IMG/VR virus record: IMGVR_UViG_3300047469_000312
Span: 1-64,000 of that record
Source of the DNA: a virus
Length of the DNA stretch: 64,000 bases
Direction: 5' to 3' (one strand)
Below the pieces are notes generated by a model that had not been told where the DNA came from, did no database searches, and saw only the letters and a list, made by a program, of their open reading frames with translations. This document shows positions 13,530 through 17,411 of this stretch, piece after piece. Each line of letters begins with the position of its first letter. The stretch's first letter is position 1. The position numbers were made by a program, and so were the translations under genes.

Positions 13530-13838
13530 ATGGCTAAGTTCGAACGCACCAAGCCCCACATCAACGTGGGCACGATCGCTCACTATAGTCCAGGCAGTAC
13601 TCGCAGCCGGGCTCGCATGCTGATGCAACTGGCCGCGCTGAACGCAGTTGTCGCGTCACAAGACACCAGTAGTGTAGCGCTGTACGGTAACGAGAGCACG
13701 GGACCTAAGACATACACCAACATGAACCAAGGTCCGATGCAGGATTATCGGACGCGCGATGAACGTCGGGGCAAGAAGAAGCGCCGGAATGGACCGAAAT
13801 CCGGTTCACGCTATAAGAAAGGGAGGTGGTGGGAATGA
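13530..13838 (+). CDS. Small protein with EF-Tu N-terminal mimic and basic WWE tail
   Basis: 102 aa. Residues 3-18 read KFERTKPHINVGTIAH. Bacterial EF-Tu begins (A/S)KEKFERTKPHVNVGTIGH, so 14 of 16 positions are identical. After this the GTP-binding P-loop is not kept: EF-Tu continues VDHGKTTL, whereas this protein has YSPGSTRS. The rest has no EF-Tu similarity; the C-terminal third is very basic (RGKKKRRNGPKSGSRYKKGRWWE). It is therefore not a truncated GTPase but a small protein carrying only the EF-Tu N-terminal strand. The WWE codons also provide the GGAGGTGGTGGGA ribosome-binding region of the next gene, which it overlaps. Function unknown; decoy or ribosome/EF-Tu-related roles are speculation. 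Confidence 0.72.
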   Translation: MAKFERTKPHINVGTIAHYSPGSTRSRARMLMQLAALNAVVASQDTSSVALYGNESTGPKTYTNMNQGPMQDYRTRDERRGKKKRRNGPKSGSRYKKGRWWE

Positions 13839-14611
13839 CCGATTCGGAACAGTCTGACTTCTATCGCTCAATCGTGCAGGAATACGGCGATGGGATTGTG
13901 GCGATCGTTGATCATGTCCAGCAACAACTCCGTGCGCCGATCGATCAATCTGTCAGTCACGTCGACATTGAGCTGGGCGGTCAAGTTGTAATGCGACTGA
14001 GTTCTCACGAGAAGGGCGCATGGCGTGATCCGTTCATAATGCAATCGCCAGGCAAGACGCCTTTTGTGATCGAAGCTTACAGTGTGCGGCCTGTTCAGGG
14101 GATGGAAAAGCACCTGCTCCTAGTTGAGACTAAGGTAGAGTACCGGTCGGGTCTGGACGTCTCCGATCTCCAGGTCGCACTCGACACCCCCTTGCATGCG
14201 CTTGATCCCGCGGATGAGAAGATCGTCAAGGATATTCTCAAGGCCGTGGTGGAAGCAGACGGGGATGGAATGCTGCGCCGCCTGGATCGAAAGGATCTCC
14301 CCATCCTCTATATTGACGAGCACATGCTGATTCGGAATCACGTCACGCATCTGCTTAGGCAATCGGATCTACCCATTATCGTGGTCGCGACTCAGGATGA
14401 ACTGAAGTCAGAACTACGGGGGCGTGGGGTGAGTGAGCGCGACATCCTGGAAAAACTTACTGGGATGGTGCATCCCATGAGAAGTGACGTCGAGCCATTG
14501 GGCTTGGCAGAAGTTGTACACGCTATGCCCGCATTCGAGGTGAATAACCCTGGGAAAAGCTCCCGGCGGCCCGCCTTGCCCAAGAACAGAAAACGCGATC
14601 GGTGGAACTGA
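13835..14611 (+). CDS. Unknown protein with basic C-terminal tail
   Basis: 258 aa. The ATG at 13835 is preferred over a GTG nine bases earlier because of the GGGAGGTGG spacing. It has an acidic alpha/beta body with a central VETKVEYRSGLDVSDLQVAL strand-helix part and a conserved-looking LPILYIDEHMLIRNHVTHLL segment. It ends PKNRKRDRWN, again a basic tail with tryptophan. No recognised family; no membrane segment. The stop overlaps the next start (TGATG). Confidence 0.68.
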   Translation: MTDSEQSDFYRSIVQEYGDGIVAIVDHVQQQLRAPIDQSVSHVDIELGGQVVMRLSSHEKGAWRDPFIMQSPGKTPFVIEAYSVRPVQGMEKHLLLVETKVEYRSGLDVSDLQVALDTPLHALDPADEKIVKDILKAVVEADGDGMLRRLDRKDLPILYIDEHMLIRNHVTHLLRQSDLPIIVVATQDELKSELRGRGVSERDILEKLTGMVHPMRSDVEPLGLAEVVHAMPAFEVNNPGKSSRRPALPKNRKRDRWN

Positions 14612-15500: not shown

Positions 15501-17411
15501 ATGGCAATCGAACAACCGGGCCAAGAAGGCCAAGCAGCAGCTCCGGCGGAAACGCAAATGGCAGCGGGTTTCACCCGTGCCAAGGATAACCAGAACTCTC
15601 AACCGCGAGGCACCATGAACCAGCAACAACAATCCGCACCGGCGGGCTTCAGCTTCCGCTCGCTCGGCCGCCTGGGCAACGCACCGATGGGCCGCAACCC
15701 GGCTGCTGAAGTGCTCGTCAAGCTCGAGAAGGCCCTGATCGAAACGTACAAGTCGGCGAACCCGGCTTTCGAGATCAAGCTGCTCCCGCTCGACATGAAC
15801 AACAACCCGGCGATCGCGCGCTCGGCGCTCATCGTGGCCCTGTTCGACAAGAACGACCTGGACCTGGGCGTCGCGTACCACACGCTGATCCTCGCAGGCT
15901 CGGGCGAACCGTTCCCGCCGAAGTACGACCAGATCAACGGTCAGAACGTCGAAATCCAGCGTGTCGACGGCGACGTGTGGGACGACAAGTTCCGCGAAGT
16001 CGTGGCCGATGCCGTGGCCCGTACGTTCAACGGCGCGCGTCTGATCGACGCTGAAGCCGAAGTCGTGCCGCGTTCGTTCGACGTCGCAGACGAACAGCTC
16101 GTGTACCAGCTCGCCGCGAACGCACTGTTTGCAGCGAACCACGAACTGAACCGCATGCGTCCGGACTTCCGCGACCTGAACCTCGCAGGCGCAGCACGTG
16201 ACTCGAACCTGACCGCACGCGTCGCGTTCAACCACGACCAGCTGGTTGACCCGGTCGGCGAGCCGATCCGCACCGACGTGATGATCGACCTGATCGCCAC
16301 GGCAATCACGACCGGCCAGGGCGCCAATGCAGACGCACGCGCGACGAAGGTCTCGCAAGTCGGCGGCTTCCTCGACCTCGTGTGGGACCCGGTCGCACCG
16401 ACCGCGAACCCGTACGCGCAGTGGGGTCAGTCGCAGCAACAGCAGTTCAACCCGCTGTACATCACGCACTTCGTGATGACGCACCTGGAAACGCTCGAGC
16501 TGATGACCGTTCCGGCTCAGCTGTTCGCGCTGGTTCAGGCGCTCACGCTGCGTGACGGCAACGCATGGGCACGTGGTTTCGCACCGCGTCCTTACGCGCA
16601 AGGCATCGACATGCACGACATCGGTGCAATCGGTATCGAAGCGAATCCGGAAGGCAACGCGAACGGCATCGGCGCGCGCATCGACACGAAGTCGGACGCG
16701 TTCACGGCACAAGGCACGCTGCACAAGCTGCTGCAAGCTTTCGTGCGTCCGGGCTTGCTGCTCTCGATCGACGTGCCGGAATGCGGTCCGTCGACCTGGT
16801 CGAACTCGGTGTTCGCGGCTGCTGCTGAAGGCAGCCAGAAGGCCAACGAGTTCATCATCGAAGCAGCGCAGACGCTGACGAACGGCAACTTCCTGAAGCA
16901 CTACACGAACGGCACGGGCCGCGTTGCGTTCGACAACAACAACCGCATTCACCTGGGTTGGTACGTCGACCAGCAAGGTCGCAAGCGCGACATCCGCGAC
17001 ATCGACTACCTCGCGGTAGCGAACCTGATCGGCGAGAAGGACCCGACGGTCATCAAGGACTGGAGCGACACGTTCGTCAACCTGCAAATCTCGCCCGCGC
17101 AGCGTCTCGCGCGTCGCAAGAACATCATCCAGGGTCTGGTCGGCGACGCAACCTTCACGGGTTTCGCACGTCGTGCAACGCTGGACGGTGCGTTCATGGA
17201 AGCGCTGGCCAAGGGCTGCGTGGATGCGGGTCTCGTCCTGCGTGCACAATACCCGTTCGGCGACGTCGCGGGTCAAGAGCGTGCAACGGCGCAGTTCGCC
17301 AACGGCCTGCTCATGGCTCCGGGTGCAACCGGTCTGTTCGCGGCAGGCTTCGGCGGTCAGTCGAACCAAGGCGCTGGCTGGGGTCGCACGGGCTTCAGCT
17401 CGCGCTGGTAA
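15501..17411 (+). CDS. chmA: Chimallin-like phage nuclear shell protein
   Basis: 636 aa, ATG with GAAACAAGGAATAGCA leader. Chimallin forms the protein lattice that encloses replicating phage DNA. The assignment rests on several points. The length is near the roughly 610-640 aa of known chimallins. Flexible Gln/Ala-rich N-terminal (about 45 residues) and Gly/Ser-rich C-terminal (last 25) segments flank a globular alpha/beta body. The gene is immediately followed by the RNA polymerase beta-prime N fragment, the gp54-gp55 order of phiKZ. Expression signals are very strong (AT-rich promoter region, optimal codons, strong terminator), and a PhuZ gene lies in the same window. I see no catalytic motif. 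The alternative would be another abundant early or structural protein such as a capsid protein. Confidence 0.72.
   Translation: MAIEQPGQEGQAAAPAETQMAAGFTRAKDNQNSQPRGTMNQQQQSAPAGFSFRSLGRLGNAPMGRNPAAEVLVKLEKALIETYKSANPAFEIKLLPLDMNNNPAIARSALIVALFDKNDLDLGVAYHTLILAGSGEPFPPKYDQINGQNVEIQRVDGDVWDDKFREVVADAVARTFNGARLIDAEAEVVPRSFDVADEQLVYQLAANALFAANHELNRMRPDFRDLNLAGAARDSNLTARVAFNHDQLVDPVGEPIRTDVMIDLIATAITTGQGANADARATKVSQVGGFLDLVWDPVAPTANPYAQWGQSQQQQFNPLYITHFVMTHLETLELMTVPAQLFALVQALTLRDGNAWARGFAPRPYAQGIDMHDIGAIGIEANPEGNANGIGARIDTKSDAFTAQGTLHKLLQAFVRPGLLLSIDVPECGPSTWSNSVFAAAAEGSQKANEFIIEAAQTLTNGNFLKHYTNGTGRVAFDNNNRIHLGWYVDQQGRKRDIRDIDYLAVANLIGEKDPTVIKDWSDTFVNLQISPAQRLARRKNIIQGLVGDATFTGFARRATLDGAFMEALAKGCVDAGLVLRAQYPFGDVAGQERATAQFANGLLMAPGATGLFAAGFGGQSNQGAGWGRTGFSSRW

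Follow-up and report, generated by a model that had tools for sequence, protein, structure and literature searches.

Residues 12–23 of elongation factor Tu (EF-Tu; VNVGTIGHVDHG) are present in 51 representative phage proteins, which form 41 groups unrelated to each other outside the motif. The same EF-Tu peptide on dozens of phage proteins with no other relationship points to a so far undescribed form of imitation of a core host protein. In the window (the whole 64,000-nucleotide stretch of DNA analysed here, the first part of a virus record of 172,464 bases) the peptide is carried by a 102-residue protein, the first 18 residues of which are a selected copy of the EF-Tu N-terminus. The features of the window referred to below are as follows.

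13530–13838, plus strand: open reading frame (ORF) of 102 residues with the EF-Tu peptide, from translation; orthologues in six viral contigs and gp386 of phage FLC9.
13536–13583, plus strand: EF-Tu-like residues 3–18, KFERTKPHINVGTIAH; pN/pS 0.083.
13584–13619, plus strand: codons 19–30, at the position of the EF-Tu P-loop, lacking GxxxxGK[ST] and fast evolving in the family alignment; pN/pS 0.569.
13707–13835, plus strand: codons 60–102, a basic tail conserved in the family alignment, TYTNMNxGPM...ERRxKKK...YKKGRWWE; pN/pS 0.167.
15501–17411, plus strand: chimallin, the phage nucleus shell protein, 636 residues (Pfam PF25677, E = 2.6e-55; phrog_4795, nuclear shell protein, E = 3.8e-109).

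The 102-residue protein, with N-terminus MAKFERTKPHINVGTIAH, spans MAKFERTKPHINVGTIAHYSPGSTRS...YKKGRWWE, and the preliminary description is correct on its reading frame, its length, the ATG start, the basic C-terminal half and the terminal WWE. The identity to EF-Tu proposed there for residues 3–18 is borne out by comparison with E. coli TufA (KFERTKPHVNVGTIGH), in which 14 of 16 positions are the same. The EF-Tu P-loop was also correctly described as lost, with YSPGSTRS in place of VDHGKTTL, and the view that the protein is not a GTPase is upheld by the missing GxxxxGK[ST] and by the lack of any Pfam family at E ≤ 1. G3 (DCPGH) and G4 (NKxD) motifs, EF-Tu domains II and III and the region in which Lit cleaves EF-Tu are likewise absent from the protein. 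The predicted structure of the family is a weak model (mean pLDDT 55.5) with residues 1–23 as coil; the gene product is probably a small basic protein, largely unstructured.

Since chimallin is encoded at 15501–17411, the virus is a nucleus-forming jumbo phage. Burkholderia phage FLC9 is the sole phage record that resembles it at the DNA level (79% identity over 55% of a 10-kb query). When the 102-residue protein was compared with 50,697 phage records by tblastn, FLC9 gp386 matched at full length (E = 7e-21) and residues 3–35 matched genuine tuf genes in bacterial records (E ∼2e-3), in agreement with the earlier claim that the EF-Tu likeness is not due to chance. Together with FLC9, orthologues in six viral contigs (66–92% identity; one identical protein sequence in L012, L013 and L014) place the protein in seven other records. 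The preliminary description had considered that homologues might lack the 16-residue identity; the opposite was found, as the orthologues keep the match, those of FLC9 and contig L012 reading KFERTKPHVNVGTIGH and thus agreeing with EF-Tu at 16 of 16 positions. GxxxxGK[ST] is missing from all seven aligned sequences of the family, which have YSPG, YRTG, ILPG or VLPR there instead. Contamination by a tuf gene is ruled out by the seven other records with an orthologue, by the limited DNA identity of the segment to E. coli tufA, the only tuf gene compared (35 of 48 bases), and by its synonymous divergence. Across six sequences (the window, L010, L011, L012, L034 and FLC9) the EF-Tu-like codons have a pS of 0.56, and the mimic is the best-kept part of the gene and the P-loop region the least kept, as judged from pN/pS (0.083 against 0.569).

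The gene had been placed in an early-promoter operon. In the sole promoter test made, TATATTAC, which we take to be the phiKZ early promoter, was found four times in the window (934, 23854, 28872 and 47889) and nowhere near the gene, which lends the assignment no support. The next gene (13841–14608) encodes a 256-residue product with a Pfam Serpin match below the curated cut-off (E = 0.0037). In Pseudomonas phage HRDY3 an unannotated ORF (L173, near 1201–1278) contains KPHINVGTVGHIDWG, and its TYTN...NGP tail resembles the window family by eye.

Searching the 50,697 phage records by tblastn with EF-Tu residues 1–36 returned 134 records; some of these are host tuf, tet or other GTPase genes, and short hypothetical proteins of many isolate phages are matched as well (Erwinia Machina-type phages, Vibrio 207E48.1, henriette, Va2 and 150E35-1, Aeromonas D6, Pseudomonas PaBG and Jeremy, Shewanella 1/4, and Aaphi23). 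The isolate carriers inspected infect what we take to be gamma- or beta-proteobacteria, as do those found with a NIG-type query among the matches listed (60 of 143 records). E. coli jumbo phage EC001 and Salmonella phage SPAsTU have 69- and 71-residue versions reading NVGTIGR, the EC001 gene lying at L171, 1138–1347. These match weakly alone (E = 9) yet resemble the SNUABM_29 protein. Exact scans of viral contigs for HVNVGTIGH gave 45 loci, 13 of them non-EF-Tu and in six families; NVGTIGH then RT gave 92, all translated, with 50 counted as non-EF-Tu, possible chance matches included. H[VA]NIGTIGH was found at ten loci, every one EF-Tu, and NIGTIGH[VIM]D at 24, five of which are not ordinary EF-Tu (L155, L157, L158, L160 and L161). 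The match in the record of Moraxella phage Mcat7 was rejected as host tuf rather than a mimic; that record (L003, 1–4932) contains unannotated host fusA and tuf ahead of an integrase.

The 51 proteins are made up of 39 groups in which NVGTIGH is exact, another 11 carriers and HRDY3, and the 41 unrelated groups are those obtained by blastp (E ≤ 0.01) with the motif and its flanks masked. About five groups are candidates for chance (L099, L105, L114, L121 and L124), having little match past NVGTIGH or a very short ORF, and L160 (61 residues), counted among the 51, could be a decayed tuf. The 39-group count, for which four clusters of the codon-analysis set were split by eye, leaves out an 11-residue ORF (L085) and the cut or frameshifted EF-Tu genes L038, L058, L060 and L070. 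As a general explanation, decay of tuf was rejected, given the unrelated flanks, the extra pieces that are often not collinear and the purifying selection on the segment in the window family. Full-length-looking EF-Tu is itself encoded in many viral contigs, several of them longer than 300 kb (among them L031–L033, L036, L040, L043, L046, L048–L054, L056, L057, L059, L061–L064, L071 and L073), and the 332-kb IMGVR_UViG_3300009703_004110 encodes both EF-Tu (L131) and EF-G (L135).

The proteins that carry the peptide are diverse. Pfam and PHROGs recognise a peptide deformylase with SEC-C (L158), a terminase large subunit (L117), a YbcO nuclease (L094), a cysteine-dioxygenase-like body (L157) and SEC-C alone (L110). 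The 279-residue protein at L158 (2481–3317, minus strand) joins EF-Tu residues through switch I to peptide deformylase and a SEC-C motif. In the Erwinia Machina-type family, for which structure prediction gave a weak model (mean pLDDT 39.8), the carrier lies after a gene annotated as ribosomal-protein-alanine acetyltransferase in L018 and L022, and a few genes further on is an Appr-1-p processing protein (macrodomain) annotation. The preliminary description had entertained an isolated acquired domain of the window protein; this is not supported by the data, in which the EF-Tu segment behaves as a portable linear peptide. Exactly one EF-Tu match was present in each of the 18 records checked.

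By predicted start codons, the motif lies no more than 40 residues from the first Met in 31 of the 51 carriers, internally in ten and no more than 25 residues from the ORF end in ten, although of the last L042 is cut by the end of the sequence stretch and L099 and L124 are possibly chance. The N-terminal majority, together with the host-like MSKEKF start kept by L094, L129 and Aaphi23, would suit a captured tuf start, in which the first part of a strongly expressed gene would serve phages as a ready-made place to begin translation and the peptide would be a by-product. This explanation is already disfavoured and we consider it unlikely: it does not account for the ten internal and ten ORF-end carriers, nor for a segment in which amino acids are held while synonymous sites are free (pN/pS 0.083), and the N-termini of 19 other E. 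coli proteins are absent from isolate phages among the matches listed (60 of 101; see below).

Conservation of the peptide has a sharp outline. Residues 13–19 are fixed at 100% by the search pattern, so only the flanks are informative; across the 39 groups identity to EF-Tu is 72% at V12, 56% at V20 (with a further 33% Ile), 77% at D21, 69% at H22 and 79% at G23, falling to 33% (13 of 39) at K24 and to at most 28% before V12. An intact P-loop, GxxxxGK[ST], is found in eight of the 39 groups and is missing in 31. Among 36 clusters all four codons of Val, Gly and Thr occur at the motif, and as synonymous codons vary freely, selection acts on the peptide and not on DNA, which also excludes a DNA or RNA element. 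Footprint and codon use together define the unit as the peptide EF-Tu 12–23, rather than the nucleotide pocket or the DNA. Because Lys24 is kept in only 13 groups and the full P-loop in eight, GTP binding is not the common purpose. A miniature P-loop domain binding GTP or a related nucleotide is accordingly very unlikely as an explanation: the first 20–60 positions of the Pfam GTP_EFTU profile do match eight of the 20 carriers scanned, three of them above the curated cut-off (L158, L117 and L007), and eight groups keep the motif, but 31 do not, and in the window family none of seven sequences has it. Action of the peptide during synthesis, inside the ribosome exit tunnel and independent of the mature protein, would fit a stretch of about 12 residues selected at the amino-acid level at any position, yet EF-Tu is, to our knowledge, made fast and not known to stall, and this explanation seems to us very unlikely.

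The restriction to one segment was examined with other parts of EF-Tu and other host proteins. CPGHADY[VI]K, a conserved EF-Tu stretch similar in length to HVNVGTIGH, was found at 55 loci, none of which is non-EF-Tu as judged by EF-Tu flanks beyond the pattern. EF-Tu residues 58–93 matched 28 of the 50,697 phage records, always across 80% or more of the query and never as a short partial match (14 at ≥80% identity, 14 at <60%); these are mostly unannotated, and EF-Tu or CysN where annotated. A joined query of 20 E. coli N-termini (EF-Tu first, then 18 ribosomal proteins and RpoA) matched 101 records, and among the matches listed (60 of 101) isolate phages, of Erwinia, Vibrio, Haemophilus and Aggregatibacter as well as Burkholderia FLC9 and Pseudomonas Dolphis, matched solely the EF-Tu segment. 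The other 19 segments matched, within the same 60, bacterial and metagenomic records and records with phage names (S.Kent, LM, ECO95, SA, Efs, IME_EF3 and MD-2021a), which contain runs of ribosomal-protein genes and are taken to be host contamination. Against the controls run, the peptide is thus specific to its segment, and on all three controls chance was rejected as a general explanation. In bacterial genomes, scanned for the variant NVGTIGH[VIM]D[WYC]G only, a single locus was found and reads as genuine EF-Tu at a contig end. Among the plasmid matches listed (60 of 1,128 records) all are genuine EF-Tu, SelB, TypA or tet genes with the exception of four places in Sinorhizobium/Ensifer, which lack an annotated gene.

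Some carriers hold further pieces of translational GTPases. An EF-G helix-A peptide (like ERILFYTG) is present in six of 50 carriers (L025, L074, L089, L102, L112 and L132) against two of 9,485 control ORFs, both in loci fetched by the ERILFYTG pattern itself, and an exact or near switch-I peptide (RGITI, RGITV or CGITI) in four of 50 (L007, L017, L025 and L158, the first two related) against none of the 9,485; as these motifs were picked after examples had been seen and the controls include ORFs in all six reading frames, p-values would overstate the difference. The order of the peptides varies, EF-Tu preceding EF-G in L074 and following it in L102. With motifs masked and the carriers aligned to EF-Tu and EF-G, ten of 62 reached the 95th percentile of 1,500 controls, a modest excess, and two reached the 99th, one of which (L060) is a broken genuine EF-Tu. 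Exact scans revealed no free EF-G mimic: NIGISAHID gave one locus, an EF-G cut at the end of the stretch, and ERILFYTG five, namely three EF-G and two ORFs that are probably chance. EF-G 1–69 matched two of 18 carrier records, one of them weakly, and did not match Machina. In ChrisDB and SNUABM_8, two related Erwinia phages, a second protein contains a stretch resembling EF-G close to its start; in SNUABM_46, also an Erwinia phage, EF-G aligns weakly (E = 0.5) to a sequence with no EF-G peptide, a match taken as chance.

A decoy or another EF-Tu-related role is the most plausible reading of the peptide, and is strengthened by its recurrence in unrelated phage proteins. The window protein is one case of a recurrent design, in which phages place (V)NVGTIGH(V/I/M)D(H/Y/W)G, EF-Tu 12–23, at any position on unrelated proteins, usually with the following P-loop lysine altered. 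Such a peptide may be a linear decoy or pseudosubstrate. It would tie up a host factor able to read the corresponding part of EF-Tu, and perhaps also that of EF-G, when exposed (nascent, unfolded or cleaved), so that a host response aimed at translation factors would be blocked. Residues 12–18 are the buried first strand of folded EF-Tu, and recognition would therefore have to involve an exposed form. Recognition by a host protein, the blocking effect and the defence process are each steps that we infer, and occupancy of a host factor by a linear decoy is put forward tentatively, as a possibility we would not yet bet on. The drop at K24 fits a pseudosubstrate, with recognition residues kept and acted-on residues lost, although this does not explain all carriers, as the P-loop is intact in eight of 39 groups. 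EF-Tu is very abundant, so a weak decoy would be swamped, and on a terminase or deformylase the peptide more closely resembles a tag than a free decoy, which also counts against the idea. More speculatively still, a Gram-negative factor, possibly a defence effector, might read linear peptides of the cell's own translational GTPases, to which many phages would have answered independently by displaying EF-Tu 12–23, EF-G helix A and switch I on any protein, the records checked having a single EF-Tu carrier per genome.

The main rival to the decoy is a docking strand that would bind EF-Tu, EF-G, the ribosome or a nascent-chain chaperone and so bring a basic-tailed phage protein to the translation machinery. 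Peptide deformylase and SEC-C have links to the ribosome or nascent chain, and the deformylase–SEC-C fusion of L158 and the SEC-C fusion of L110 would be in keeping with docking, as would the net charge of at least 6 in the last 20 residues of seven of 38 carriers (4.9% of 2,984 control ORFs). On the other hand, 11 of the 38 have tails without net positive charge, it is not obvious why the terminase and YbcO fusions would need docking, the extra peptides vary in order and spacing, and we know of no ribosome contact at EF-Tu 12–18. Docking is thus possible but, in our view, doubtful.

A 12-residue piece of a highly conserved bacterial protein has, then, been gained alone by many unrelated phage proteins, and such repeated gain implies a strong, general selective force within the host that is unnamed in the open literature searched. 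In the listed excerpts of open PMC papers returned by full-text search there was no description of EF-Tu peptides on phage proteins, and the three papers containing NVGTIGHVDHG concern the pig immunopeptidome and plants. Whichever reading holds, EF-Tu 12–23 offers a ready bait for finding its partner, with a known sequence and a scrambled control, and versions of it are carried by an E. coli phage (EC001, with GR for GH) and by phages of other tractable hosts.

Relative to EF-Tu itself (GTP_EFTU, PF00009), the likeness is confined to residues 3–18 in the window protein and 12–23 in the wider class, which has unrelated bodies; the window family differs in lacking the P-loop, G3, G4 and domains II and III. 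Two unnamed phage families match some of these proteins: phrog_12626 matches the whole of L039, the Erwinia Machina-type carrier, and L158, L117, L094, L118 and the window protein match phrog_27465 at the EF-Tu stretch, the window protein through residues 3–25 only and not over the whole 59-residue profile. A phage–host conflict centred on EF-Tu exists in the T4 Gol peptide and the Lit protease of E. coli, which cuts EF-Tu at RG|ITI in switch I. The Lit-site peptide is found, exact or nearly so, in the four switch-I carriers; in contrast, the main phage mimic is EF-Tu 12–23, and Gol is not an EF-Tu copy. We know of no system in which unrelated phage proteins have so frequently acquired a peptide of a translational GTPase. 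The closest parallel is the short-linear-motif mimicry of eukaryotic viruses, in which a short host peptide is likewise gained repeatedly on unrelated viral proteins, whereas here the imitators are phages and the protein copied is a translational GTPase.
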